A stretch of DNA of 35,156 bases from Silicimonas sp. (GTDB lineage Bacteria; Pseudomonadota; Alphaproteobacteria; Rhodobacterales; Rhodobacteraceae): assembly GCA_013003245.1 (NCBI GenBank), contig JABDJX010000014.1, forward strand, positions 1 through 35,156, written 5' to 3'. This document shows, piece by piece, positions 1 to 14,781 of this stretch. The notes below the pieces were generated by a model. That model did not search any database. It worked only from the letters and a program-made list of their open reading frames with translations, and was not told the origin of the DNA. Positions within the stretch are counted from its first letter, which is position 1, and each line of letters begins with the position of its first letter. Position numbers and translations under genes: made by a program.

Positions 1-436
1 CTTGTTCAATTTCGACCGGGATCATCAGGTTTTCGCGATACCCTGGGTCCCAATCGCCAAAGTCACACATCAATGCGCGGTCATTCAATGAACAGCGGTC
101 GTCCAATTCGACCACCCTCAGCCCCTCGGGCAGGACATCCGTCAGACTGACGCCGGTGATCGGTTGTTCTTGCGACGAGTTTCGCAAACGATATCGGATG
201 TTGGCCTGATCGCCCACGGTCTCGTCATCGCCGCGAATATCTTCGCGCAGCACGACTTCCGGAGCCCGCAGATCGCCCAGTTCGACCGGCTTGACCGAAA
301 TCCAGAAGATCGCGAGCAACGGCAACACAACAACCAAAGCCACGGCCGTGATGGTAGGAAACAGCAACCCCCAGGCCAACCGCGCTTCGCGTTTGGCCAA
401 TGGGCCGGTTCCGATAGGTGGATTTGCGTCCGCCAT
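1..436 (-). CDS. Sugar ABC transporter permease with extracytoplasmic DUF11-like insert (partial, runs off left edge)
   Basis: An ATG at 436 opens a frame that stays open for 145 codons to the window edge. A short cytoplasmic tail (residues 1-20) precedes one clear membrane helix (about 21-47, rich in L/V/A/I). Instead of the next permease helices, a soluble segment of about 98 residues follows. It contains I-R-Y-R-L-R-N, then G-V-S-L-T-D-V-L-P-E-G-L-R-V, two cysteines, and a D-W-D-P-G turn. That pattern resembles DUF11/CARDB-type beta-sandwich repeats. The gene lies 80 nt downstream of a sugar-binding protein gene on the same strand, the usual place for the first CUT1 permease, so the remaining helices and EAA loop probably lie beyond the edge. 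The ribosome binding site is weak. That this is a permease is inferred from position and the N-terminal helix; the insert-like segment is seen directly. Confidence 0.62.
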   Translation of the reverse strand, partial: MADANPPIGTGPLAKREARLAWGLLFPTITAVALVVVLPLLAIFWISVKPVELGDLRAPEVVLREDIRGDDETVGDQANIRYRLRNSSQEQPITGVSLTDVLPEGLRVVELDDRCSLNDRALMCDFGDWDPGYRENLMIPVEIEQ

Positions 437-516: not shown

Positions 517-1869
517 TTACTTAACCGCAGCAATCGCTTCGTTCAGCGCTGCAACCGTTGCGGCTGCATCACGCTCGCCGTCGATGTACTCGCGCACGAA
601 GCGGTTGATCACCTGGCTGTTGATGATCTTCGAGGCCGCTGAAAGCTGGCCGTCGGCCACGCCCCAACGCTGTGCCACGTCCAGGCCACCCACGATCTCT
701 TTAATCATCGAAGCATCATAAAGGTCACCAAGTGGCGCTTTGCGATCAACACCAACGTCAAGCGTTGCCCAAAGGTCCGAGTACTCCGTTGGATTGGCAG
801 AGGTGCCACGGCGCACGGGAAATTTGCCCTCGGGCGCGATCGCAAGGGTCGCGCCGTATCCGTCACTCATCGAATACGCGACAAACTCCATCGCCGCATC
901 AGTGGAGGCATCTGACGTAATGCCAAAATACCGCACATCGCCCCAGGCGGCGCCATCCGGATTTGACGGCCCGGCAAAGTTGGTCACGATGCCGGTGGCT
1001 GCCGCCAGATCACGGCTCATGGGATCGTCGTTGATGGTCGGCGGGGCGCTGTCGCGCAGGCCAGCCAGTTCGTCCAAAATGAACGGCGACCAGATAATCA
1101 TCGCTGCGTTGCCGCTGAAGTAGAGCGTACGCGACTGATCCCAGTAAAGATCGCCCGGAGGCGAGGCTTCGGCGATGGCCTTGTAGAACTCCAGAACTTC
1201 GATCGTTGCTGCTTCGTCTAGGGCCTGCACACCATCTGGGCCTACGGGCGAGACACCGTTGGCAAGGAACACGTGTTCTAAAACCTGGCTCATGAAGTTT
1301 TCGTCGATCTTTGTGGCAGCGACGAAACCGTACATGTCTGGTGGGCTATGAAGCGCTTCGATCGCGGCTATGACGTTGGCGTAGCTGTTTGGTGGCTCAA
1401 GACCTTTTTCTTTGAAAAGGTCGGCACGGTAGACAAGCATCTGTGTCCAGCCATCGACCGGGACCGACGCAAAACCACCATCAACGGCGGCCATTTCCAA
1501 GGCACCCGGGGCGAAGGTTTCTTGGCCAAGCGCCTCGACCACATCCGTTGCGGCATCCGTGTCCAGAATGCCGGCTTCAGCCCATGGAGCGGCGTACTGC
1601 AAGGTATGATAAATCACATCTGGTAAATCGCCTGCTGCAAATGCTGCTGTGGCGCGCGTGCCAAGATCGTTTTCCGAGACAGGGATAACCTGAACGTTGT
1701 GTCCAGAGGCTTTGGCAAAGGCTTCTGCCATCGCTTCCTGACGCGCCAAACGCTCGGGCTGTTCCTCTGTCGTCCAAAACCGCAGATCCTCGGCTTGTGC
1801 GGCAAATGCGGAAAAGACCAGCGCCATTGCCGCTCCAGTTCGCAGGATTGCTCTTGATTTCAGTTTCAT
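517..1869 (-). CDS. Periplasmic sugar-binding protein of a CUT1 ABC transporter
   Basis: A 450-residue extracellular solute-binding protein of family 1 (COG1653 type). Residues 1-26 form a signal peptide (K-L-K-S-R start, hydrophobic core, A-Q-A cleavage site), so the mature protein starts near Glu-27 and acts in the periplasm. The mature sequence opens with the L-R-F-W-T beta strand typical of the fold, and the segment D-L-P-D-V-I-Y after a G-T-R-A-T-A-A-F-A-A-G stretch matches the ligand-binding lobe of family 1. A strong GGGAGGAAG ribosome binding site lies just before the ATG. It follows the LacI gene by 27 nt and precedes the partial permease, so the three form one operon. The substrate cannot be read from sequence; a disaccharide or alpha-glucoside is a guess from context only. 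Confidence 0.9.
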   Translation of the reverse strand: MKLKSRAILRTGAAMALVFSAFAAQAEDLRFWTTEEQPERLARQEAMAEAFAKASGHNVQVIPVSENDLGTRATAAFAAGDLPDVIYHTLQYAAPWAEAGILDTDAATDVVEALGQETFAPGALEMAAVDGGFASVPVDGWTQMLVYRADLFKEKGLEPPNSYANVIAAIEALHSPPDMYGFVAATKIDENFMSQVLEHVFLANGVSPVGPDGVQALDEAATIEVLEFYKAIAEASPPGDLYWDQSRTLYFSGNAAMIIWSPFILDELAGLRDSAPPTINDDPMSRDLAAATGIVTNFAGPSNPDGAAWGDVRYFGITSDASTDAAMEFVAYSMSDGYGATLAIAPEGKFPVRRGTSANPTEYSDLWATLDVGVDRKAPLGDLYDASMIKEIVGGLDVAQRWGVADGQLSAASKIINSQVINRFVREYIDGERDAAATVAALNEAIAAVK

Positions 1870-1896: not shown

Positions 1897-2967
1897 TTAG
1901 CTTTGTGATGGTGGTGGGGGCCCGGTCGAGCCGCGTTTGACAAATGTTGCCGACGCCGTTTCACGCAATTGATCCAGCTCTTCTCCATGGATGCGGCGCA
2001 TCAGAATGTGAGACAGCCGCTCACCGGCAACCTTGTTATCAACCGAAAATGTCGTCAGTGGCGGCTGCGCGTGCGCGCCTTCAGGAATGCCGTCATACCC
2101 CACGATTGACAGGTCTTGACCGATCACGAGGCCAAGTTTCTTGGCCGCCTCATAGACTCCGAGAGCTGCGAAATCGACGGCACAGACAATTGCAGTGGGT
2201 GGGGTCTTGTTGTTCAGCAGGCCATTTGCCACAGCCGCCCCGTCGCGGATCGTTACCGCATCTTCTGCTACCAAATCCGGGTCAACCGGCAGGTCCGCGT
2301 CTTTCATCCCTTGCCGGAAGCCCTGTTCGCGAAGGGGGGCATAAGCGTATTGCGTGCCTCCATTGATGAACCCGATGCGCCTGTGGCCAAGTGCAGCAAG
2401 ATGCATCACTGCATTCCGCATCGCGTCTTCACCCAATATGTCAAACCAAGCACAATCAGTATCGTCCTCTTGCCGACCAAAAAGAACAAAAGGCACCTCT
2501 GCCTCGCGCAGCAGCCTGACACGTGGATCATTGCGCATCGCGCGTGGAAGAATGAACCCGTCCGCCTTTCCGTCCCGGAGGAGGGCGCGAAACGTTTCGA
2601 TCAGATCTTCGTTGTTTTCAGAAGCGGCAACGGTCATTGTCCAGCCTTCAGCGTGCGCGCCTGCCGACAAGCCTGCCAGAAACTCGGCCAGAAACGGACG
2701 CTGCGCATCATGATCAGAAAGCTGCAAGACAAGTCCAAGCGAACGTGTGCGACCGGTCTTGATAGCTTGCGCATGACTAAGCGGCCTGTAGCTAAGCTTT
2801 TCGGCCATGCGTTTGACACGCAGCTGGGTCGCTTCTGATATGTCGGGATACCCGTTCATCGCACGCGACACAGTAGACTTGGTCAGTCCAAGAGCGTCTG
2901 CCATATCGGAAATTGTCGCACGATTGCGGCGTTTTCCGTTGGCTATTGATGTGAGCGACTTGTTCAA
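1897..2967 (-). CDS. LacI-family transcriptional regulator (first sugar system)
   Basis: A LacI/GalR repressor. An N-terminal helix-turn-helix (about residues 15-40: T-I-S-D-M-A-D-A-L-G-L-T-K-S-T-V-S-R-A-M-N-G) and hinge are followed by a periplasmic-binding-protein-like effector domain with the L-G-L-V-L strand and a late I-V-G-Y-D-G. The start is chosen as TTG at 2967 because GGGGAG lies 7 nt upstream of it; this gives 356 residues. A GTG at 2982 would add five residues but has its best Shine-Dalgarno match only 2 nt away. The gene is the first of the operon that continues into the binding protein and permease. A perfect 18-bp palindrome just upstream (2997-3014) suggests autoregulation. 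The effector sugar is unknown. Confidence 0.9.
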   Translation of the reverse strand: MNKSLTSIANGKRRNRATISDMADALGLTKSTVSRAMNGYPDISEATQLRVKRMAEKLSYRPLSHAQAIKTGRTRSLGLVLQLSDHDAQRPFLAEFLAGLSAGAHAEGWTMTVAASENNEDLIETFRALLRDGKADGFILPRAMRNDPRVRLLREAEVPFVLFGRQEDDTDCAWFDILGEDAMRNAVMHLAALGHRRIGFINGGTQYAYAPLREQGFRQGMKDADLPVDPDLVAEDAVTIRDGAAVANGLLNNKTPPTAIVCAVDFAALGVYEAAKKLGLVIGQDLSIVGYDGIPEGAHAQPPLTTFSVDNKVAGERLSHILMRRIHGEELDQLRETASATFVKRGSTGPPPPSQS

Positions 2968-2996
2968 AAATGATCTCCCCACGACTCACCGTGGCA

Positions 2997-3259: not shown

Positions 3260-4297
3260 GTGACGAAGCCGCGGATCAACACGATGGAAGAACTGTCGGT
3301 CGCGATTGGTGTATCGAGGCCAACGCTGTCTAGATTTTTCCAGAACCCGAACCTGGTAAAGGCGAACACAGTCGCGCGTATCGAAGAGGGGTTGGACAAG
3401 GTTGAATACGTCCCAAACTTCTTTGCCACACGCCTGAATCGCAAATCGACAGGCATAATCGGCGTGATTATTCCCTATTTTAACGATCTTTTCTTCACCA
3501 AGCTTCTTGAATCGATAGAGCGTGCAGCGATGCAGGCTGGCTTTTCGGTTTTAACCAAATGCTCGCACTCTGATCCAGGGATCGAGGGGATGGCCCTGGA
3601 AAGCTTTATGTCGATGAACGTCGATGGCGCGCTTGTTGTGCCATTGGGTAACCAAAGTAATGTTGGCGCCTACGAGCGTCTGCAATCGCGCATTCCATCT
3701 TTGCTTGTCGATTCGCGGCCCGACACCATGCTGGACTTGGATTATGTGGGCACAAACCACGTGCAAAGTGTTGGTCTTTCAATTGAATATCTGTGCCGCG
3801 TTGGGCCGCCTCCGGTGTTTCTGGCGATGCCGCGGGTGAATTTTAACGCGATGGGCCATGAGCGTGCCTATGCCGAGAAAATGCAGGAAATGGGCTTTGA
3901 GCCGCGTGTGATCGGGACCGAGGCCCTGAATGACGAATGGCACTATGAGGCGCATGGGCAGGCGGTTCTGGATCAGGCGTTTTCTCGTGGTGAGCTTTTG
4001 GATCAGTCAATATTGTGCGCCAACGATCGTGTGGCCATCGGTGCCCTGCGCGCGGCGTTCCAACACGGGCTGGAGCCAGGCGCGCAAAAACACGGTGGAC
4101 TGCGCATTATGGGACACGACGACTATCCGCTTTGCCCTTTCCTGGTTCCCAGCCTGACCACGGTAGAGCAGGACCTGGATGGCATTGGACATAAGGCAGT
4201 AAGCCTGCTTGCCAATAAAATACACGGGCCAAAATTTTCGGAAGAACAAATCGTAGAGCTCTTCGACGTTGTATTAAAAGTACGTGAATCCGCGTAG
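3260..4297 (+). CDS. LacI-family transcriptional regulator of the polyol operon
   Basis: A 345-residue LacI/GalR-type repressor. The DNA-binding segment at residues 8-30 (M-E-E-L-S-V-A-I-G-V-S-R-P-T-L-S-R-F-F) is followed by the hinge and a strand reading G-I-I-G-V-I-I-P-Y-F-N-D, the start of the sugar-binding domain; I-M-G-H-D-D-Y near the C terminus matches the family's later signature. The GTG start is fixed by a very strong AAAGGAGGT ribosome binding site at 3246-3254. The helix-turn-helix is less canonical than in the other two LacI proteins here (S-R-P-T-L-S-R rather than the usual T-x-x-T-V-S-R). It stands 105 nt ahead of the binding-protein gene of a sorbitol/mannitol operon and probably controls it. 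The inducer is inferred to be a polyol from context only. Confidence 0.88.
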   Translation: MTKPRINTMEELSVAIGVSRPTLSRFFQNPNLVKANTVARIEEGLDKVEYVPNFFATRLNRKSTGIIGVIIPYFNDLFFTKLLESIERAAMQAGFSVLTKCSHSDPGIEGMALESFMSMNVDGALVVPLGNQSNVGAYERLQSRIPSLLVDSRPDTMLDLDYVGTNHVQSVGLSIEYLCRVGPPPVFLAMPRVNFNAMGHERAYAEKMQEMGFEPRVIGTEALNDEWHYEAHGQAVLDQAFSRGELLDQSILCANDRVAIGALRAAFQHGLEPGAQKHGGLRIMGHDDYPLCPFLVPSLTTVEQDLDGIGHKAVSLLANKIHGPKFSEEQIVELFDVVLKVRESA

Positions 4298-4402
4298 TTG
4301 GCTAATTTTGCTGCGATGCGGCGTAAATTTGGGCAGAAATTTGTTGACGTAGCGACATTAATCGCGCAATTTGCACGCACGTAAAAAACTGGGAGGACAG
4401 CA
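4298..4402 (+). promoter_or_regulatory. Promoter/operator region before the polyol operon
   Basis: This 105-nt AT-rich gap has no gene. It contains a direct repeat AAATTTG at 4325-4331 and 4337-4343 (12 bp apart) and a third partial copy CAATTTG at 4367-4373. A TTGACG hexamer at 4344-4349 could be a -35 element, but no good -10 is visible. GGGAGGA just before the ATG at 4403 is the ribosome binding site. No clean LacI palindrome is visible here. Confidence 0.4.
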
Positions 4403-5719
4403 ATGTCTATCAAAAGAACACTACTGACCACTGCGGTCGGCTTTGGCCTTTCAGCGGGCATCGCGTTCGCAGACAGCCATGCAAAGACCATTACGATCGC
4501 AACCGTGAATAACGGCGACATGATCCGCATGCAGGGCTACACCGACACATTCACTGCAGACACTGGCATCAACGTCGAGTGGGTAACACTTGAAGAAAAC
4601 GTCCTGCGCCAGCGTGTGACAACGGACATCACCACCAAGGGTGGCCAGTTCGACATCATGACTATTGGCATGTACGAAACCCCGATCTGGGGTGCAAACG
4701 GCTGGTTGGTTCCACTGGATGATCTTTCGGCGGAATACGACGTAGACGACATCCTGCCGGCCATGCGCAACGGTCTTTCCAACGACGGCACGCTTTATGC
4801 AGCACCATTTTACGGCGAAAGCTCGATGGTTATGTATCGTACCGACCTGATGGAAGCGGCTGGTCTGGAAATGCCAGACGCACCGACATGGCAGTTCATC
4901 CGCGAAGCGGCGGCTGCAATGGACGATCCGGCAAACGACATCAACGGCATTTGCCTGCGCGGTAAGGCCGGTTGGGGTGAAGGCGGTGCCTTTATCACAG
5001 TCACCGGTAACTCTTTCGGTGCGCGCTGGTTTGACGAAGACTGGAATGCGCAGTTCGATCAGCCACAATGGGCCGACGCTCTTAATTTCTATGTCAGCCT
5101 GATGAACGACTACGGCCCTGAGGGTTATGCGACGAACGGTTTCAACGAGAACCTGTCGCTCTTCAACCAGGGCAAGTGCGGCATGTGGATTGACGCAACT
5201 GTTGCGGCATCTTTCGTAACCGGTGACGACTCGACCGTTGCTGACAGCGTGGGCTTTGCCCTTGCGCCAAACAGCGAAGGCGTTGAAAAGCGCGCTAACT
5301 GGCTTTGGGCATGGGCACTGGCAATTCCTGCCGGTACGCAGCAGGAAGCTGAAGCCAAGCAGTTCATCGAATGGGCAACGGGCAAAGGCTACATCGAGCA
5401 GGTTGCAGCCAAAGAAGGTTGGGCCAACGTTCCTCCGGGTGCGCGGACATCCCTGTACGAAACACCAGAGTATCAGGAAGTACCGTTTGCCAAGATGACG
5501 CTGGATTCGATCAATGCGGCTGATCCGAACAACCCAACGGTGGACCCGGTTCCGTATGTCGGCATTCAGTTTGTCGCAATCCCCGAGTTTGCGGGTATGG
5601 CGACCGAAGTGAGCCAGGAATTTTCGGCAGCCTATGCTGGTCAGCAGACCGTTGAAGAGGCCCTTGCAAAAGCGCAGGCAATCACCAACGAGACCATGGA
5701 AGCAGCAGGCTACAAATAA
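4403..5719 (+). CDS. smoE: Sorbitol/mannitol-type ABC transporter substrate-binding protein
   Basis: A 438-residue periplasmic solute-binding protein with a signal peptide at residues 1-23 (K-R-T core, hydrophobic stretch, A-F-A cleavage before D-S-H-A). The mature region starts with the K-T-I-T-I-A-T-V-N-N strand, and Q-F-D-I-M-T-I-G-M-Y-E-T-P-I-W and Y-G-E-S-S-M-V-M-Y-R-T-D-L match the polyol-binding SmoE/MtlE branch of the CUT1 binding proteins as I know it. It heads a run of seven genes containing two permeases, an ATPase, a sorbitol-type SDR and mannitol 2-dehydrogenase, the order described for the Rhodobacter sphaeroides smo operon. It is separated from the permeases by a 123-nt gap with a stem-loop, which would allow more binding protein than membrane components. 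The symbol rests on context and family resemblance. Confidence 0.88.
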   Translation: MSIKRTLLTTAVGFGLSAGIAFADSHAKTITIATVNNGDMIRMQGYTDTFTADTGINVEWVTLEENVLRQRVTTDITTKGGQFDIMTIGMYETPIWGANGWLVPLDDLSAEYDVDDILPAMRNGLSNDGTLYAAPFYGESSMVMYRTDLMEAAGLEMPDAPTWQFIREAAAAMDDPANDINGICLRGKAGWGEGGAFITVTGNSFGARWFDEDWNAQFDQPQWADALNFYVSLMNDYGPEGYATNGFNENLSLFNQGKCGMWIDATVAASFVTGDDSTVADSVGFALAPNSEGVEKRANWLWAWALAIPAGTQQEAEAKQFIEWATGKGYIEQVAAKEGWANVPPGARTSLYETPEYQEVPFAKMTLDSINAADPNNPTVDPVPYVGIQFVAIPEFAGMATEVSQEFSAAYAGQQTVEEALAKAQAITNETMEAAGYK

Positions 5720-5733
5720 GCCCGCGTTTTAAA

Positions 5734-5760
5734 TCAGGGGGCGGTGCGTCCGCCCTCTGA
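5734..5760 (+). terminator. Stem-loop behind smoE (attenuator or mRNA 3'-end stabiliser)
   Basis: TCAGGGGGCGG and CCGCCCTCTGA form an 11-bp stem with one G-U pair around a TGCGT loop, starting 14 nt after the smoE stop codon. No T-run follows, so a simple rho-independent terminator is unlikely. In ABC operons such hairpins commonly allow partial termination or protect the upstream message. A similar hairpin is found after the other binding-protein gene (13829-13857). Confidence 0.72.
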
Positions 5761-5791
5761 ACCCCACAACACTTGTCAATTTTACGATCGT

Positions 5792-5806
5792 CGACAACAG
5801 TTGTCG
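5792..5806. promoter_or_regulatory. Perfect inverted repeat CGACAAC-A-GTTGTCG inside the polyol operon
   Basis: Seven-base arms flank a single A in the gap between smoE and the first permease gene. The CGACAA/TTGTCG arms match those at 3189-3204 upstream of the LacI gene, with a spacer one base shorter. It may be an internal operator for the neighbouring LacI protein. A role at RNA level is less likely because the loop would be too tight without melting inner pairs. Confidence 0.5.
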
Positions 5807-5842
5807 TTAATGGCCACCTGTTCACGGGGGAGATGACTCAAG

Positions 5843-6709
5843 ATGGCAACCAAAGCTTCACGATCCGCTGCGCGTCTGATGATGGCACCTGCCGTAGTCC
5901 TGCTTTTGGGCTGGATGCTGGTCCCTCTCATAATGACGCTCTGGTTTTCGTTCCGCACCTACCTGCCGCTGCGCGGAGGGGATCAGGGTTGGACCGGATT
6001 TGACAACTACGTCCGATTTGTTTCCTCAAGCGCCTTCTGGCCTTCGGTGACGACCACCCTGATTATTGTGGGCGGTGTCCTGGCAATTACAATCGTTCTG
6101 GGCGTTATGCTCGCGATCCTGCTGGACCAGCCGATGTGGGGGCAGGGGGTTGTGCGTATCCTTGTCATTGCCCCGTTCTTCGTGATGCCCACCGTTTCCG
6201 CGCTGGTATGGAAGAACATCTTTATGGACCCGACCAACGGCCTTTTTGCGCATCTTTGGCGATTATTTGGCGCAACCCCGGTCAGTTGGCTTTCAGATGC
6301 GGCGATCCCGTCGATTATTCTGATCGTGTCCTGGCAGTGGTTGCCGTTCGCCACACTGATCCTGCTGACGGCGATCCAGTCGCTGGACAGCGAACAGCTT
6401 GAAGCCGCCGAGATGGACGGCGCCTCGCCACTGGCGCGGTTCGGCTTCATCACCCTGCCGCACCTTAGCCGCGCGATCACGATTGTGGTTCTCATTCAAA
6501 CGATCTTCCTGCTTGCGATCTTTGCCGAGATTTTCGTGACCACCGGCGGTGCCTTCGGCACCCGAACCCTGTCGTACCTGATCTTCCAGCGTGTGCTGGA
6601 AAGCCAGAACATCGGGCTTGGGTCAGCAGGCGGCGTTTATGCCATCATACTTGCCAATATCGTTGCGATCTTCCTGATGCGCATCGTCGGCAAGAACCTG
6701 GACAACTAG
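5843..6709 (+). CDS. smoF: Polyol ABC transporter permease (first)
   Basis: A 288-residue inner-membrane permease of the MalF/UgpA type. Hydrophobic segments at about 15-36, 70-95, 104-123, 155-178, 208-230 and 260-280 give six membrane helices. The cytoplasmic EAA loop that docks on the ATPase is clear at residues 187-206 (E-A-A-E-M-D-G-A, then F-x-x-I-T-L-P). A GGGGGAG ribosome binding site lies 10 nt before the ATG. It is followed after 14 nt by the second permease. Together they form the membrane channel for the polyol bound by the upstream binding protein. Confidence 0.9.
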   Translation: MATKASRSAARLMMAPAVVLLLGWMLVPLIMTLWFSFRTYLPLRGGDQGWTGFDNYVRFVSSSAFWPSVTTTLIIVGGVLAITIVLGVMLAILLDQPMWGQGVVRILVIAPFFVMPTVSALVWKNIFMDPTNGLFAHLWRLFGATPVSWLSDAAIPSIILIVSWQWLPFATLILLTAIQSLDSEQLEAAEMDGASPLARFGFITLPHLSRAITIVVLIQTIFLLAIFAEIFVTTGGAFGTRTLSYLIFQRVLESQNIGLGSAGGVYAIILANIVAIFLMRIVGKNLDN

Positions 6710-6723
6710 GGGGAGGACGGAAC

Positions 6724-7554
6724 ATGGCACGTGCAATTACAAACCAGCGCAAAACGATCAACACGGTCGCTGCCTGGACAATCGGTCTGCTGATCTTCTT
6801 TCCGATCCTGTGGACGATCCTGACCAGCTTCAAAACCGAAGCGCAGGCAATCGCCGACCCGCCGATCTTCCTGTTCTTTGACTGGACGACCGAAAACTAT
6901 GGCACGGTGATGGAGCGCTCGAACTATGCGCGCTTCTTGTGGAACTCGATCATCATCGCCGGTGGCTCGACCATCCTTGGCATCATCATCGCGGTGCCTG
7001 CGGCGTGGTCGATGGCCTTTGTGCCCTCAAGGCGCACCAAGGATATCCTGCTTTGGATGTTATCGACCAAGATGCTGCCGGCGGTGGGTGTGCTTTACCC
7101 GATCTATCTGCTTTTCATCAAACTTGGGCTTCTCGATAACGTCTATGGGCTGACCTTTGTGCTGATGCTGATCAACCTGCCGATCATTGTCTGGATGCTT
7201 TATACATATTTCCGCGAAATTCCGGGCGAGATCCTCGAAGCCGCGCGGATGGATGGGGCAACCTTGAAGTCAGAGATACTCTATGTGCTGACACCGATGG
7301 CGATACCGGGTATCGCGTCGACCCTGCTTTTGAACTTCATCCTTGCGTGGAACGAGGCGTTCTGGACGCTGAACCTGACAGCAGCCAAAGCGGCTCCTCT
7401 GACGGCCTTCATCGCCAGCTACTCAAGTCCTGAGGGTCTTTTCTACGCAAAACTAAGTGCTGCCTCGACTATGGCAATCGCGCCAATCCTGATCATGGGT
7501 TGGTTCTCACAGAAACAGCTCGTTCGGGGCCTAACATTCGGAGCGGTAAAATAA
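6724..7554 (+). CDS. smoG: Polyol ABC transporter permease (second)
   Basis: A 276-residue inner-membrane permease of the MalG type. The N-terminal helix (about 15-36) is followed by the characteristic [12 protein letters not shown] periplasmic entry segment of MalG-like proteins. The EAA loop lies at residues 172-191 (E-A-A-R-M-D-G-A, then V-L-T-P-M). A GGGGGAGGA ribosome binding site precedes the ATG. The stop codon overlaps the ATPase start by one base (TAATG), which implies translational coupling. Confidence 0.9.
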
Positions 7555-8558
7555 TGGGTCAGATTAGCCTTAACCAAGTCACCAAGAGCTTTGGCGATGT
7601 GCAAGTCATCCCGCCGCTTGATCTGGAAATCAACGAAGGGGAGTTTGTTGTCTTTGTCGGCCCGTCCGGCTGCGGCAAATCCACCTTGCTGCGCCTGATT
7701 GCCGGGCTTGAGGATACGACGTCCGGCCACATCAGCATCGATGGCAATGACGCCACAGCCCTGCCGCCTGCCAAGCGCGGCCTTGCGATGGTGTTCCAGT
7801 CCTATGCGCTTTATCCGCACATGTCGGTGCGCAAGAACATTGCCTTCCCGATGCGTATGGCGGGTCTGGATGAAGCAGCGCAAAAGGCCAAGATCGATGC
7901 TGCTGCCAAGGCGCTGAACCTGACGGATTACCTGGACCGCAAACCCGGTCAATTGTCCGGTGGTCAGCGCCAGCGTGTGGCGATTGGCCGTGCGATTGTG
8001 CGCGAACCTGCGGCGTTCCTTTTTGACGAGCCACTGTCGAACCTCGATGCGGCGCTGCGCGTCGGCATGCGGCTTGAGATCATGGACCTGCACAAAAAGC
8101 TCGATACAACGATGATCTACGTCACCCACGATCAGGTCGAAGCGATGACCATGGCCGACAAGATCGTGGTGCTGCAGGCCGGTGTGATCGAGCAGGTGGG
8201 CAGCCCGCTTGATCTTTATCACACGCCGCGCAACAAGTTTGTTGCTGGCTTTATCGGCTCGCCCAAGATGAACCTGATCGAGGGGCCGGAAGCGGCCAAG
8301 CATGATGCGACCACGATCGGCATTCGTCCCGAGCACATGACGGTTTCAAAGACCGAAGGTCTGTGGAAGGGCCGCGTTGGTGTGGCAGAGCATCTTGGGT
8401 CGGACACGTTTATCCACGTGCACGACACCGGTTTGGGCGACATGCTGACGGTGCGCATCACCGGCGATATCGAAGCAAAACATGGCGACGATATCTATCT
8501 GACGCCAATTGCGGATCAGGTGCACAGGTTCGACGCGGCGGGGCTGCGCATCGGATGA
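7554..8558 (+). CDS. smoK: Polyol ABC transporter ATP-binding protein
   Basis: A 334-residue MalK-like ATPase that energises the transporter at the cytoplasmic face. Visible motifs are Walker [10 protein letters not shown] (36-44), Q-loop F-Q-S-Y-A-L-Y-P-H (81-89), signature L-S-G-G-Q-R-Q-R (134-141), Walker B F-L-F-D-E-P (155-160) and the switch region T-H-D-Q. The C-terminal third, with G-I-R-P-E-H, is the TOBE/MalK-type regulatory domain. The start at 7554 is chosen because it overlaps the stop of the preceding permease by one base and begins the conserved M-G-Q-I-S-L strand; an 18-residue upstream extension in the same frame lies inside the permease gene and is unlikely. The end overlaps the next gene by four bases (ATGA). 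Confidence 0.93.
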
Positions 8559-9328: not shown

Positions 9329-10791
9329 TGAAGCTAAGTTTGGAAACCCTTGACGCCTTGCCCGAGGACATTCGCAAACCGTCTTATGACCGGTCCGCCC
9401 TGTCGGCTGGCATTGTTCATATCGGGCTGGGCAATTTTCATCGTGGGCATCAGGCATGGTACCTGCATCGGCTGATGGATCAGGGCGAAGCGTTTGACTG
9501 GGCGATCCTTGGTGCGGGTGTGCGTCCGGGGGATGCGGCCCAACGCGAGCGGTTGCTGGCGCAGGATTGCCTGACAACGCTGATAGAGCTGGACCCGTCC
9601 GGCAAATCCGCCGAGGTAACCGGCTCGATGATCGGCTTTATCCCGGTGGCAGAAGACAACGCGCCGCTGATCGCGCATATGGCCGAGCCCGCGATCCGGA
9701 TCGTCGCGATGACCGTGACCGAGGGCGGATACTATGTTTCTACAGACGGGACGTTCGATGCGGACCACGCCGATATTCAGCACGACGCGGCGCATCCGGA
9801 CGCGCCAAAGACTGCCTTTGGTGCGATCGTTGCTGCCCTGAAACTTCGCCGAGAAAGCGGCGCAGGCCCGTTCACCTGTCAAAGCTGCGATAACCTGCAG
9901 GGCAACGGTGATATTCTGCGCCAAACCATTGTTGGGCTGGCTGCGATGTCGGACCCGGACCTTGCGCAGTGGATCGATGAGCACGCGACGTTCCCGAACT
10001 CGATGGTCGATTGCATCGTGCCCGCCACTGGCCCGTCCGAACTGGCTTTGGTGCGGACCTTCGGCATCGAAGACGCGGCTCCCGTGACGCACGAGAACTT
10101 TCGCCAATGGGTGATCGAGGACACGTTTTGCGCCGGACGCCCTGACTGGGACAAGGTGGGTGCTACCTTTACCGATGACGTCCACGCCTTTGAGGCGATG
10201 AAGCTGCGCTTGTTGAACGCCGGCCATCAGATCATCGCCACGCCGGGCGAATTGCTGTCGGTTGACACCATCGCCGGCACGATGGCGCATCCGCTTATTC
10301 GCGACATGTTCCGCAAGATCGAAATCGACGAGATCGTGCCCCACGTGGCGGCCGTGCCCGGAATGACGCCGCTGGATTATGTCGATCTGGTTGACCGCCG
10401 CTTTTCCAACCCGGAAATTCACGACACCACACGCCGCGTGGCGTTTGATGGCTCGTCGCGGCACACAGGGTTTTTACACCCAATTTTGCGCGACGCTTTA
10501 GCGGCTGGCACCCCAATTGAAGGTCTTGCACTTGTCGAGGCCCTTTGGGCGCGGATGTGCGAAGGCACGCGCGAAGATGGCAGCGAAATTTCAGCCAACG
10601 ATCCGTTTTGGGAGACTTTGACAGCAAAGGCCAAGGCCGCAAAAGAAACGCCGAAAACATGGATCGAACAGGATCAGTTCTACGGCGCGCTTGGTCAAAA
10701 CGCGCAGTTTGCGGCAAGTTTCGAGCGTTGGTTGCGCGTGGTATGGGATCAAGGTACCGAAGCGGCGATCCGCAGCTATCTGGAAGCTTGA
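9328..10791 (+). CDS. mtlK: Mannitol 2-dehydrogenase
   Basis: A 487-residue member of the polyol-specific long-chain dehydrogenase family, the usual length for mannitol 2-dehydrogenase. The N-terminal domain has the fingerprint G-L-G-N-F-H-R-G-H-Q (about 35-44) for NAD binding, and the second domain has the catalytic signature K-L-R-L-L-N-A-G-H with its Lys, Asn and His. The enzyme oxidises D-mannitol to D-fructose; family members also convert D-arabitol to D-xylulose. ATG at 9328 is chosen because it overlaps the preceding stop (TGATG); an ATG four codons upstream in the same frame is possible but less coupled. The protein acts in the cytoplasm next to the sorbitol-type enzyme, so both routes give fructose. 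Confidence 0.92.
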   Translation: MKLSLETLDALPEDIRKPSYDRSALSAGIVHIGLGNFHRGHQAWYLHRLMDQGEAFDWAILGAGVRPGDAAQRERLLAQDCLTTLIELDPSGKSAEVTGSMIGFIPVAEDNAPLIAHMAEPAIRIVAMTVTEGGYYVSTDGTFDADHADIQHDAAHPDAPKTAFGAIVAALKLRRESGAGPFTCQSCDNLQGNGDILRQTIVGLAAMSDPDLAQWIDEHATFPNSMVDCIVPATGPSELALVRTFGIEDAAPVTHENFRQWVIEDTFCAGRPDWDKVGATFTDDVHAFEAMKLRLLNAGHQIIATPGELLSVDTIAGTMAHPLIRDMFRKIEIDEIVPHVAAVPGMTPLDYVDLVDRRFSNPEIHDTTRRVAFDGSSRHTGFLHPILRDALAAGTPIEGLALVEALWARMCEGTREDGSEISANDPFWETLTAKAKAAKETPKTWIEQDQFYGALGQNAQFAASFERWLRVVWDQGTEAAIRSYLEA

Positions 10792-10799
10792 AACCACCC

Positions 10800-11444
10800 G
10801 TGGCCCGCATTGTCTTTGATCTTGACGGCACTCTGATCGACAGCGCGCCAGACATTGGCGGGATTGCCAATGGGTTGCTTGCAGACCGTGGGCTGCCGCC
10901 GATTACGTCTGAGCAGACGCGCGATTTCGTCGGCAAAGGCCCGGGTGTCTTCATCGAAAAGATGCGCACTGCACGCAACATTCCCCAAAGCGAGCAGACC
11001 ACTCTGCTGACCGCGTTCATGGCCAATTACGATGGTGCTGTGGGGCTGACACACCCTTACCCCGGAGTTGTGAATGCGTTGGAAAACCTGCGCACCAAAG
11101 GCCACCGTTTGGGGATTTGCACAAACAAGCCGATCAAGCCGACAATGGCCGTTTTGCGTCATCTGGATTTGGAACAGTATTTCGAGACCTTTGTTGGCGG
11201 GGACAGCCTTGCGGTGCACAAACCCGATCCGGCACCCTTAGAACAAGCTTTTGCAGCCCTCGGGGACGGAAAACAGATTTTCGTAGGCGACAGCGAGGTT
11301 GATGCGGCAACGGCCCTGGCCGCCGGGGTGACGTTTCTTTTGTTCACCGAAGGCTATCGCAAAAAGCCCATCGCAGAGCTGCCGCATGATCAGGCGTTTT
11401 CGCATTTCGACGGCTTTTGCGACCTTGTTGGCGGGATCACCTAG
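10800..11444 (+). CDS. HAD-family hydrolase (phosphoglycolate phosphatase-like)
   Basis: A haloacid-dehalogenase-superfamily phosphatase of about 214 residues. Motif I is F-D-L-D-G-T near the N terminus (Asp-7 and Asp-9), motif II is the G-I-C-T-N-K-P segment, and motifs III and IV are H-K-P-D-P and G-D-S-E-V-D. A helical cap domain lies between motifs I and II. The GTG at 10800 is used; a TTG at 10788 overlapping the mtlK stop would add four residues, but its only purine-rich upstream stretch is too close. As the last gene of the polyol operon it probably removes phosphate from a sugar phosphate or metabolic by-product; the substrate is not evident. Its stop codon shares CTAG with the stop of the convergent LacI gene. 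Confidence 0.83.
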   Translation: MARIVFDLDGTLIDSAPDIGGIANGLLADRGLPPITSEQTRDFVGKGPGVFIEKMRTARNIPQSEQTTLLTAFMANYDGAVGLTHPYPGVVNALENLRTKGHRLGICTNKPIKPTMAVLRHLDLEQYFETFVGGDSLAVHKPDPAPLEQAFAALGDGKQIFVGDSEVDAATALAAGVTFLLFTEGYRKKPIAELPHDQAFSHFDGFCDLVGGIT

Positions 11445-12472
11445 AGCGGCTCTGGCGCGATCAGCTTTTGCATCGGTGGCAGGTGCGGCGCGTCAATGGC
11501 GCGGATCAGCGCCTCGGCCAGATACAAACCCGTTTCGCCCACATCCTCGTAGCAGACCAGAATGTCCTTGCGAAACGCCTTAAGCAGCGGGATCGCTTCT
11601 TTTGCGGCGACGTCAATGTCCGCGCCGATCGTGCGGTCCAGCTTTTCGATGGCAAGCGTTGCGGCAAGTGCGACGGGGGCCGAGGCGCAGATGACGGCAT
11701 CAGTTTTGGGATGCGCGCGCAGGTACCGTGTTAAGGCGCCGGTCACAAGGTCAGCCGAACTGTCGCTGGTTGCATCCGGCAAAATGGCAGTATCCAGACC
11801 CAATTCCGAGGCCGTGCTGGTGGCACCCGCAACAAGGTGCTGCGCATAATTCTGATCCAGTGGCGGTGCGACGATGAGCACGTTCTTTCGACCTCTGCGA
11901 TGGAACGCGTCAACGCAGTGTTTGCCAAAAACAGCATTGTCGAAATCAAGGTAAGGCGCGTCGCTGCAGGTATTGGTGCGCCCATGCAGTGCGAAGGGAA
12001 AGTTCTGCTGCTTGAGGTAGGCGACCCTTGGATCGTCGGGCTGTATCCGATTCAGGATCACCCCGTCAGCCGAGCCGGTCTGAACGACGTATTTCACCGG
12101 ATCAAGGGGCGATTCGTCGGGAAAGTAGGGTGTCACGATCAGATGATAGGACGTTCCGCGCAGCGCGCTGGCAACCGCGTTGATCAATTTAGCGGTGTGA
12201 TTCATTACGTCGTGATCGGTGCACAGGATCAGCGCAATGACATTGGTTTTGCCAGTGCGCAGACGCAAGCCAGCCCGGTTCGGGCGATAGCCAAGTTCGT
12301 TGGCCAAAGCGCGCACACGTTTCTTGGTTTTTGCCCCAATATCAGGGGCATCGCTTAGGGCACGCGATACTGTGGGAACTGCCAGACCAAGCAGGCGTGC
12401 GATGGTTTTCAGGGTCGGGCGTTCGCGTTCGCCCGGCTCCAAAACTATCTCTGGCAAGTCAATGTCACTCAT
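11441..12472 (-). CDS. LacI-family transcriptional regulator (third sugar system)
   Basis: A 343-residue LacI/GalR protein with a short acidic N-terminal tail. The helix-turn-helix spans residues about 19-42 (T-L-K-T-I-A-R-L-L-G-L-A-V-P-T-V-S-R-A-L-S-D), then the hinge (Y-R-P-N-R-A-G-L-R-L-R-T-G-K-T-N) and the effector domain start at N-V-I-A-L-I-L. It is transcribed away from the binding-protein gene at 12587. The 114-nt gap between them holds a double operator-like repeat (12530-12563), so it most likely represses the divergent transport/catabolic operon until a sugar binds. Its last four bases overlap the end of the convergent HAD gene. Confidence 0.9.
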   Translation of the reverse strand: MSDIDLPEIVLEPGERERPTLKTIARLLGLAVPTVSRALSDAPDIGAKTKKRVRALANELGYRPNRAGLRLRTGKTNVIALILCTDHDVMNHTAKLINAVASALRGTSYHLIVTPYFPDESPLDPVKYVVQTGSADGVILNRIQPDDPRVAYLKQQNFPFALHGRTNTCSDAPYLDFDNAVFGKHCVDAFHRRGRKNVLIVAPPLDQNYAQHLVAGATSTASELGLDTAILPDATSDSSADLVTGALTRYLRAHPKTDAVICASAPVALAATLAIEKLDRTIGADIDVAAKEAIPLLKAFRKDILVCYEDVGETGLYLAEALIRAIDAPHLPPMQKLIAPEPL

Positions 12473-12529
12473 GCGTTAGCGCCAACATTATCGTATACGT
12501 AAATTTACATTAACACTTGCAGCAAAAAA

Positions 12530-12563
12530 CTAAAACGATTTAAGGTTTCCACAATCGTTTTAG
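12530..12563. promoter_or_regulatory. Paired operator-like repeat CTAAAACGATT / AATCGTTTTAG
   Basis: Two perfect 11-bp arms in inverted orientation are separated by 12 nt. Each arm sits on an imperfect LacI-type operator with central CG (TAAAACGATTTA at 12531-12542; CAATCGTTTTAG at 12552-12563). The CG centres at 12536 and 12556 lie 20 bp apart, about two helical turns, so two repressor dimers could bind the same face of the DNA. The site lies 24 nt upstream of the start codon of the binding-protein gene and so near the likely promoter. A GGGAGGA ribosome binding site follows at 12574-12580. Confidence 0.75.
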
Positions 12564-12586
12564 AAAAAGTCCAGGGAGGAAACATA

Positions 12587-13816
12587 ATGAAAACGATCAA
12601 GACGCTACTTTGCGGGTCGGCCCTTGTGGCGGCCGGTGCCGTTCAGGCTGCTGATCTGGAGGTCACGCATTGGTGGACATCGGGGGGTGAGGCCGCCGCA
12701 GTGGCCGAATTTGCCAAAGCCTTTAACGCCACCGAGCACAGCTGGGTCGACGGTGCGATCGCTGGCGGCGGGGGCACGGCGCGCCCGATCATGGTCAGCC
12801 GGATTATCGGTGGCGACCCAATGGGCGCCTTCCAGTTTAACCATGGTCGTCAAGCTGAAGAACTGATCGAGGCTGGGCTATTGCGCGACCTGACCGACAT
12901 TGCCGAGGCCGAGGGCTGGAAAGACATCGTCAATCCGCCGTCGCTGCTTGATGCCTGCACCGTCGATGGCCGGATCTATTGCGCGCCGGTCAACATTCAC
13001 TCGTGGCAGTGGCTGTGGCTTTCGAACAAAGTTTTTGAAGATGCTGGCCTTGATGTGCCGTCAAACTGGGATGAATTTGCGGCCGCCGGACCAAAACTGC
13101 GCGAAGCGGGTTATCAGCCCTTGGCTTTGGGAGGTCAGTCCTGGCAGTCGACGGGTTTGTTCAACGTGCTGATGGCCACTATCGCTGGCCCTGACGTACT
13201 GACAACGATCTACGGTGAAGCCGACGCTGACTTGGCGGCGGGCGACGAGATGAAAGCCGTATTCCAGGCTGCCGCCAATGCGCGTGACATGGCGCAGGGC
13301 TCTAACGTTCAGGACTGGAACCAGGCGACAAACCTTGTGATCATCGACAAAGCCGGCGGTCAGATCATGGGAGACTGGGCGCAGGGCGAGTTTGCCGTCG
13401 CCAACAAGGTCGCTGGAGAAGACTATACGTGTTTGCCCGGATTGGGCGTGCGCGACGTCATCTCGACAGGTGGTGACGCGTTCTACTTCCCTGTGAACGA
13501 CGATCCCGAAATCACGGCTGCACAGGACGTTTTGGCGGCAACGTTGCTTAAGCCTGAAACGCAGGTGAGCTTTAATTTGGCGAAGGGTTCTTTGCCGATC
13601 CGTGGCGATATTGATCTTTCTGCCGCAAACGACTGCATGAAGAAGGGCCTTGAGATTTTGGCCGCAGGAAACACCCTGCCTGACACCAACATGCTCAACA
13701 CGGAAGACACCAACAATCAGCTAAACGACCTGTTTGTTCAGTTCTTCCAGGATACCTCGATTTCGCCTGAGGATGCGCAAGCGCGCTTTGTCGATATCGT
13801 GAAAAACAAAGACTAA
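12587..13816 (+). CDS. Glucose/glycoside-type ABC transporter substrate-binding protein
   Basis: A 409-residue periplasmic binding protein with a signal peptide at residues 1-21 (A-V-Q-A cleavage). The mature start L-E-V-T-H-W-W-T-S-G-G-E-A and the following V-D-G-A-I-A-G-G-G-G-T-A-R match the GtsA-like glucose/mannose-binding branch of the CUT1 family as I recall it; the tryptophan-rich H-S-W-Q-W-L-W segment further along is also typical. It heads an operon of two permeases, an ATPase, a TIM-barrel isomerase-like enzyme and a Gfo/Idh/MocA oxidoreductase. Control by the divergent LacI gene is likely. A glucose-like sugar or a glycoside is the inferred substrate. Confidence 0.88.
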   Translation: MKTIKTLLCGSALVAAGAVQAADLEVTHWWTSGGEAAAVAEFAKAFNATEHSWVDGAIAGGGGTARPIMVSRIIGGDPMGAFQFNHGRQAEELIEAGLLRDLTDIAEAEGWKDIVNPPSLLDACTVDGRIYCAPVNIHSWQWLWLSNKVFEDAGLDVPSNWDEFAAAGPKLREAGYQPLALGGQSWQSTGLFNVLMATIAGPDVLTTIYGEADADLAAGDEMKAVFQAAANARDMAQGSNVQDWNQATNLVIIDKAGGQIMGDWAQGEFAVANKVAGEDYTCLPGLGVRDVISTGGDAFYFPVNDDPEITAAQDVLAATLLKPETQVSFNLAKGSLPIRGDIDLSAANDCMKKGLEILAAGNTLPDTNMLNTEDTNNQLNDLFVQFFQDTSISPEDAQARFVDIVKNKD

Positions 13817-13828
13817 GAGCCAATGGCC

Positions 13829-13857
13829 AAGGGGCGGTGCGAGACGTGCCGCCCCTT
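13829..13857 (+). terminator. Stem-loop behind the third-system binding-protein gene
   Basis: AAGGGGCGG and CCGCCCCTT pair as a 9-bp perfect stem around an 11-nt loop, 13 nt after the stop codon at 13816 and 31 nt before the next start. No terminal T-run follows. It shares the GGGGCGGTGCG core with the stem-loop at 5734-5760, and both occupy the same place in their operons, so partial termination or 3'-end protection of the binding-protein message is likely. Confidence 0.72.
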
Positions 13858-13887
13858 TGCACAGAGCCAGTTGAGGGAGGGGACCGC

Positions 13888-14781
13888 GTGGCATCTGCGA
13901 GCAAACCTATCGGGTTATTCCGGAACATGACCGCCAAGATCGCGGCGGTTCCGATGATCCTGACGGCACTTGTCGTCTTCGTCGGCGGCACGCTTTGGAC
14001 CGTGACCTATTCCTTCACCAACTCGAAACTTTTGCCGCGCACCAAGTTCGTGGGCTTCGATCAGTACGAGCGGCTTTGGGCGACCGAGCGCTGGATGGTG
14101 TCGATTGAGAACCTGATCATCTATGGCATCTGTTCGCTTGTCTTCAGCCTGATCATTGGCTTCCTTCTGGCTGCCTTGCTTGATCAGAAGGTGCGCTTTG
14201 AAAACACCTTCCGCACCATTATTCTCTATCCCTTTGCATTGTCTTTCATTGTCACGGGATTGATCTGGCAGTGGCTTTTGAACCCCGATTTCGGCATTCA
14301 AAGCGTGCTGCAAAACCTTGGATGGGAAAGCTTCAACTTCAATCCGCTCTATAACTCCGACATCGTGATTTACGGCGTGCTTTTTGCAGGTCTCTGGCAG
14401 GGCACGGGCTTTGTCATGGTGCTGATGCTGGCGGGGCTGCGCGGCATTGATCAAGAGATTTGGAAGGCCAGCCGAGTTGATGGCATTCCGGCATGGAAAA
14501 CGTATCTGTTCATCGTCATCCCGATGATGCGGCCCGTTTTCATCACCACGCTTGTCATCATCGCCTCGGGCATCGTGCGGCTTTACGATCTGATCGTGGC
14601 GCAAACCTCTGGCGGGCCGGGGATATCGTCTGAGGTGCCTGCAAAATACGTCTACGACTATATGTTTCAAGGACAAAACCTGGGTCAGGGCTTTGCCGCC
14701 TCGACCATGATGCTGCTGGCGGTGGCTATCGTGATCATCCCATGGGCCTATCTTGAATTTGGAGGGCGCAAGCATGGCTGA
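13888..14781 (+). CDS. Sugar ABC transporter permease (third system, first)
   Basis: A 297-residue MalF/UgpA-type inner-membrane permease. The GTG at 13888 is chosen because GAGGGAGGGG lies 5-6 nt upstream; an ATG 17 codons earlier falls inside the stem-loop region and is unlikely. The first helix lies at about 20-42, with further helices at about 78-102, 110-130, 160-185, 210-230 and 265-287. The EAA-like loop reads I-W-K-A-S-R-V-D-G-I with V-I-P-M-M following, an alternative of the canonical E-A-A-x-x-D-G-A. The end overlaps the next permease by eight bases. Confidence 0.9.
   Translation: MASASKPIGLFRNMTAKIAAVPMILTALVVFVGGTLWTVTYSFTNSKLLPRTKFVGFDQYERLWATERWMVSIENLIIYGICSLVFSLIIGFLLAALLDQKVRFENTFRTIILYPFALSFIVTGLIWQWLLNPDFGIQSVLQNLGWESFNFNPLYNSDIVIYGVLFAGLWQGTGFVMVLMLAGLRGIDQEIWKASRVDGIPAWKTYLFIVIPMMRPVFITTLVIIASGIVRLYDLIVAQTSGGPGISSEVPAKYVYDYMFQGQNLGQGFAASTMMLLAVAIVIIPWAYLEFGGRKHG

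Follow-up and report, generated by a model that had tools for sequence, protein, structure and literature searches.

A permease gene cut by the end of a Silicimonas contig encodes a CUT1-type ABC transporter subunit whose first periplasmic loop holds what Pfam and structure prediction identify as a DUF11/CLIPPER domain. Alignments place this domain in the loop that carries P2 in E. coli MalF, and it appears to be unrelated to P2. On balance we favor a reading in which the protein is the F-type subunit of a mannosylglycerate or glucosylglycerate importer, and in which the CLIPPER domain would offer the binding protein a docking platform, much as P2 does in MalF.

Results

The window, by which we mean the whole stretch of 35,156 nucleotides that was analysed, is a complete contig (G000:C22), and the contig end cuts the permease gene. 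On the minus strand, a frame that begins at the ATG at 436..434 stays open to base 2, at the contig end, and yields 145 aa; the 145 codons at 1..436 are the 5' part of a gene for a CUT1-type permease (F subunit). Hydropathy places membrane helix 1, which is strongly hydrophobic, at residues ~28-46 (299..355, minus strand), and profile alignment to PDB entries 7cad and 3fh6 makes it the equivalent of SugA TM1 and MalF TM3. The predicted DUF11/CLIPPER-type periplasmic domain occupies residues ~49-145 of the fragment (2..292, minus strand) and extends to about residue 165 in intact relatives. Within it, the stretch at 65..94 (minus strand) runs from the codon of C115 (94..92) to that of C124 (67..65). 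The first-pass annotation had described a truncated gene with one helix and then 98 residues containing YRLRNS, VSLTDVLPEGLRV, a C...C pair and GDWDPG, and each of these elements is present.

A scan of genome contigs returned 207 places that encode relatives of the permease, and we analysed the best 80 of these 207. Full-length proteins of ~400-415 aa, mainly from Rhodobacterales, were obtained from 79 of the 80. The transport domain BPD_transp_1 (PF00528), which lies beyond the point where the window fragment stops, scores above its cut-off in all 79 (e.g. 59.4 vs 26.4 bits). In 72 of the 79 (best 80 of 207) the EAA loop (EAA-x3-G) reads EAADMDGASPFQ, with close variants in the remainder. Hydropathy gives six helices in the full-length relatives, five more than the fragment holds, and the inserted domain stands between helices 1 and 2, which agrees with its earlier placement after the first helix. 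The operon adds a binding protein, a second permease and a MalK-like ATPase with TOBE domains, the set of partners by which we recognize a CUT1 importer. With PF00528, the EAA loop, the six helices and these partners in hand, the initial assignment stands: the truncated gene in the window is a CUT1-type ABC permease subunit. MalF and SugA are also the best PDB matches of a full-length AlphaFold model. The membrane part of this model is weak (mean pLDDT 58.9) because the alignment holds close relatives only, and what we used from it is the domain and the agreement of the fold matches.

An intact copy of the permease, 414 aa long, is present on a second contig of the same assembly (G000:C97). 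The window fragment and this copy are 86% identical in protein over the shared 147 aa and 80% identical in DNA over their overlap. The two permease starts (window 1-436; G000:C97:10385-10825) lie at the ends of their two contigs, and one binding-protein copy only was found in the assembly. Either the operon has been duplicated or the bin contains two strains. Because the contig end cuts the gene and the contamination of the bin is estimated at 5.2%, one could suspect an assembly chimera, or a fragment of a membrane-anchored adhesin that is no permease. The 79 full-length relatives (best 80 of 207), the intact copy in the same assembly and the conserved operon rule this out, and we give such an artefact virtually no credence.

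For the inserted region, Pfam DUF11 (PF01345) is the best family in the window fragment, with E 0.0012 and 19.5 bits against a curated cut-off of 24.6, and in 74 of 79 homologous domain sequences (best 80 of 207), with a best E of 3.4e-8. Several members also score under the curated cut-off, and a distant homologue passes it (28.1 vs 24.6 bits). AlphaFold models the isolated 124-aa domain confidently as all-beta, with seven to eight strands (mean pLDDT 85.6, >90 over most of the domain), and the same domain reaches pLDDT ~86-90 within the full-length model. The predicted fold is a beta-sandwich of the Ig-like/CnaA-like kind. Its best PDB match in Foldseek is 9ifr (TM 0.64, E 4.4e-4), a fibrillar-adhesin DUF11 domain solved by crystallography; DUF11 has since been renamed CLIPPER (PMC12617251). 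When the isolated domain was searched as a sequence profile, the PDB gave no match, and the assignment therefore rests on Pfam and on the comparison of folds. Together, these results bear out the first-pass annotation, which had read a DUF11-like beta-sandwich from the sequence and had remarked that such domains are usual in surface and adhesin proteins; a survey of the family agrees with the remark (PMC12617251). By sequence and model, then, the insert in the first periplasmic loop is identified as a DUF11/CLIPPER domain, and homology indicates that it probably faces the periplasm.

Adhesin relatives are closest to the permease domain both in solved fold and in Pfam family, and they also differ from it. 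The profile of the permease domain finds weak matches, in places as tandem repeats, in ORFs of ~1000-3200 aa, which is what adhesin stalks would be expected to give. Unlike these tandem stalks, the permease carries a single copy within its loop. The adhesin domain of 9IFR contains a Lys-Asn isopeptide bond; such a bond, with a catalytic Asp, occurs in some DUF11 domains and is absent from others (PMC12617251). We searched for a conserved isopeptide Lys in the permease domain and found no alignment column with Lys in >20% of rows. A CLIPPER-type isopeptide bond is thus not expected here, and since some DUF11 domains are without it, this does not exclude membership of the family. Unlike 9IFR, the permease domain has a Cys pair (C115 and C124 in the window fragment) that is invariant in 79 of 79 relatives (best 80 of 207). 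In the AlphaFold model the two residues sit opposite one another in a predicted hairpin (strands 115-118 and 121-129), which suggests that they form a disulfide.

The position of the insert did not turn out as at first described. The first-pass annotation had it at a different site from MalF P2, and our alignments put it in exactly the MalF P2 loop. Pfam divides MalF into MalF_N_TM (14-61), MalF_P2 (100-260) and BPD_transp_1 (298-501). TM1 and TM2 of MalF form the extra N-terminal module, MalF_N_TM, and it is therefore MalF TM3 that equals helix 1 of the permease here. A PDB profile search sets query helix 1 (19-50) on positions 28-59 of the MalF chain in 3fh6, equal to MalF ~62-93, and aligns query residues 174-407 with MalF 259-508. 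The helix-1 segments score weakly on their own in this alignment, and helix 1 aligns with SugA TM1 as well. With hhalign, one continuous alignment joins query 14-402 to MalF 58-503. Helices 1 and 2 are separated by 150 residues here and their MalF counterparts, TM3 and TM4, by 193; in two ordinary CUT1 permeases, of which the window's own gene at 5843-6709 is one, the gap is 43-48. The profile and hhalign alignments, the Pfam layout and the helix gaps rule out a separate insertion site. Because the first two helices of MalF are an addition, the loop that holds the insert and the TM3-TM4 loop that holds P2 are, as aligned, the same loop.

Given a shared loop, a similar size class and an all-beta fold, the insert could be a diverged homologue of MalF P2 and not a separate recruitment. 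The profiles and the fold searches argue otherwise. MalF_P2 has no match in the 79 members (best 80 of 207), against 74 with DUF11, and MalF_N_TM has none either; hhalign gives the domain profile a probability of 0.1% against P2; and MalF is outside the best 50 fold matches of the isolated domain, among which the DUF11 crystal structure ranks first. We reject P2 homology on the present evidence, as a very unlikely account of the insert. With the P2 profile unmatched, an apparently unrelated beta-sandwich fills the P2 position.

Apart from this domain, the permease resembles two characterized subunits. Like E. coli MalF, it has a CUT1 core of six helices, the loop ahead of BPD_transp_1 carries an all-beta domain in the periplasm, and its partners are a separate binding protein, a G-type permease and a MalK-like ATPase. 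Unlike MalF, it lacks both the MalF_N_TM helices and MalF_P2, the latter's place being taken by the DUF11/CLIPPER domain, and it scores 75.7 bits on the NCBIfam MalF equivalog, whose cut-off is 392. The best PDB sequence match of the core is SugA of the mycobacterial trehalose importer LpqY-SugABC (7cad, E 1.8e-28), which is 305 aa long and, unlike the permease here, passes from TM1 to TM2 without a large domain.

The operon runs in the order LacI regulator, binding protein, inserted permease, second permease, GH63 hydrolase, ATPase. This order is kept in nearly all sufficiently long loci of relatives, and it is the same in distant alphaproteobacterial genomes. Besides the truncated permease, the window copy holds the binding protein (SBP_bac_1; 517..1869, minus strand) and the LacI-family regulator that heads the operon (1897..2982, minus strand). 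The contig G000:C97 includes four of these genes before it breaks off: the permease, second permease, hydrolase and ATPase. The second permease (L098 8367-9578 on G000:C97; L003 6244-7572) is ~400-440 aa long with ~10 predicted helices, ~four of them extra N-terminal helices ahead of a standard six-helix core, and both membrane subunits of the importer are enlarged. Neither the GH63 hydrolase nor the usual LacI gene is present in the operons of two relatives, L018 (5001-8543) and L037; upstream of the L018 operon there is an AraC-like regulator. These two may differ in substrate range or in regulation. In the window itself, a second, complete and ordinary CUT1 operon adjoins the first on the opposite strand (3260-8558), with a LacI regulator, a binding protein, two permeases that lack an insert and an ATPase.

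Inserted permease and binding-protein subfamily are found together. Among 395 sampled genomes of the order, 113 match the domain profile, three of these through long adhesin-like ORFs only; the remaining 110, which have the inserted permease, are exactly the 110 with the binding-protein subfamily. In the class-level sample the inserted permease occurs in 10 of 385 genomes, scattered over several families, and in the phylum sample every permease-type match lies within Alphaproteobacteria.

Mannosylglycerate and glucosylglycerate are compatible solutes of algae and cyanobacteria, and the GH63 enzyme and its neighbors suggest that one or both of them are what the importer carries. The hydrolase on G000:C97 aligns over its full length with the mannosylglycerate hydrolase of T. 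thermophilus (TTHA0978; E 1e-101) and with the glucosylglycerate hydrolase of M. hassiacum (MhGgH). It keeps the Asp of an SG-x-DN motif and the Glu of F-x-EY; these align with Asp182/Glu419 (PMC6608630), which we take to be the catalytic pair. Unlike TTHA0978 and MhGgH, the hydrolase here is encoded inside an alphaproteobacterial ABC-import operon. Its best NCBIfam model is glucosylglycerate hydrolase, under the cut-off (316 vs 550 bits). An MGH1-like GH63 gene is present in nearly all relative loci of sufficient length; it is not seen in the window copy because the contig ends first. In L103, a distant relative, genes at 10629-13992 flank the import operon and encode a D-mannose-isomerase-like protein, an MPGP-family phosphatase and a GpgS-like synthase (E 3.5e-102), which suggests that this organism both makes and recycles glucosylglycerate. 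On a Limimaricola plasmid, a glycerate kinase and an AGE-family epimerase stand beside the operon, the kinase being rare among relatives. Taken with the similarity of the hydrolase, these neighbors make mannosylglycerate or glucosylglycerate the likely cargo. The link to substrate is not universal, since L018 and L037 lack the hydrolase. We also considered an alpha-glucoside (AglEFGAK) system and set it aside; the MGH1-like hydrolase points elsewhere, and the literature gave little. No ABC importer for glucosylglycerate or mannosylglycerate was found in the literature searched.

Discussion

MalF P2 is the best-studied permease domain that holds a binding protein through the transport cycle. 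It reportedly interacts with MalE throughout that cycle, and it is said to communicate substrate availability to MalK (work cited in PMC3150292 and PMC3328499). Direct contact between the P2 region (residues 91-271) and MalE has been described (PMC3150292). As the insert has the position of the MalF docking domain, it probably assists the sugar-carrying protein in docking, and by analogy contact with the binding protein is its most likely role. We envision that a CLIPPER/DUF11 Ig-like domain was recruited into the first periplasmic loop independently of MalF P2. It would stand in the periplasm beside the translocation pore, remain in contact with the cognate binding protein, whose gene lies upstream, position that protein over the permease pair and pass its loaded state to the core. 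Both the contact and the signaling are proposed from the parallel with MalF. Typical CUT1 permeases function without such a domain, and the shared occurrence of domain and binding protein follows from operon inheritance and is by itself no proof of contact. The insert has also evolved faster than its surroundings (mean pairwise identity 54% vs 82-86% in the flanking membrane parts) and thus demonstrates no conserved docking face; its most conserved residues look like fold core and linker, with no obvious docking patch.

Alternatively, the domain could serve structure or assembly, by stabilizing the pair of permeases or packing against the second of them, and never touch the binding protein. 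With the ~four extra N-terminal helices of the partner permease, both subunits are embellished together, and the invariant Cys pair fits a rigid module. The partner's extra helices sit in the membrane, however, and may not reach the domain, and it is the equivalent loop of MalF that meets MalE (PMC3150292). We regard a purely structural role as unlikely. Still less probable, in our assessment, is that the domain itself binds a ligand (the glycoside, a glycan of the cell wall or a component of the outer membrane), either raising its concentration near the pore or tethering the importer to it. The weaker Foldseek neighbors do include carbohydrate- and chitin-binding modules (3ndy, 2rtt, 6qfs, 2cwr), and DUF11/CLIPPER domains are common in adhesins (PMC12617251). 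These domains are described as stalk modules and not as binding modules, however (PMC12617251); the alignment has no evident conserved aromatic platform; and ligand capture is already supplied by the binding protein. Docking of the binding protein remains the role that we prefer.

Taken singly, the type of transporter, the family of the domain and the position of the loop are all known, and it is their combination that seems new. We did not find it in the literature searched, a weak negative given that the search lay mostly outside subscription papers, and the main text of the CLIPPER survey makes no mention of permeases or transporters (PMC12617251). One could envision that alphaproteobacterial importers of glycosylglycerates took an adhesin stalk domain, CLIPPER, and by convergence rebuilt from it the docking platform of MalF P2, and so arrived at a second, unrelated way to retain the binding protein at the importer, alongside a second permease with ~four extra helices. 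We see the case for this scenario as evenly balanced.

Within the order, the inserted domain occurs in all 110 of the 395 sampled genomes with the binding protein of this operon, which points to a probable mannosylglycerate or glucosylglycerate importer in over a quarter of those sampled. The permease also places a CLIPPER/DUF11 domain, without the isopeptide Lys, outside the surface adhesins. At stake is the generality of P2-like platforms: with two unrelated domains in the same loop, the function of such domains could be tested by comparison.
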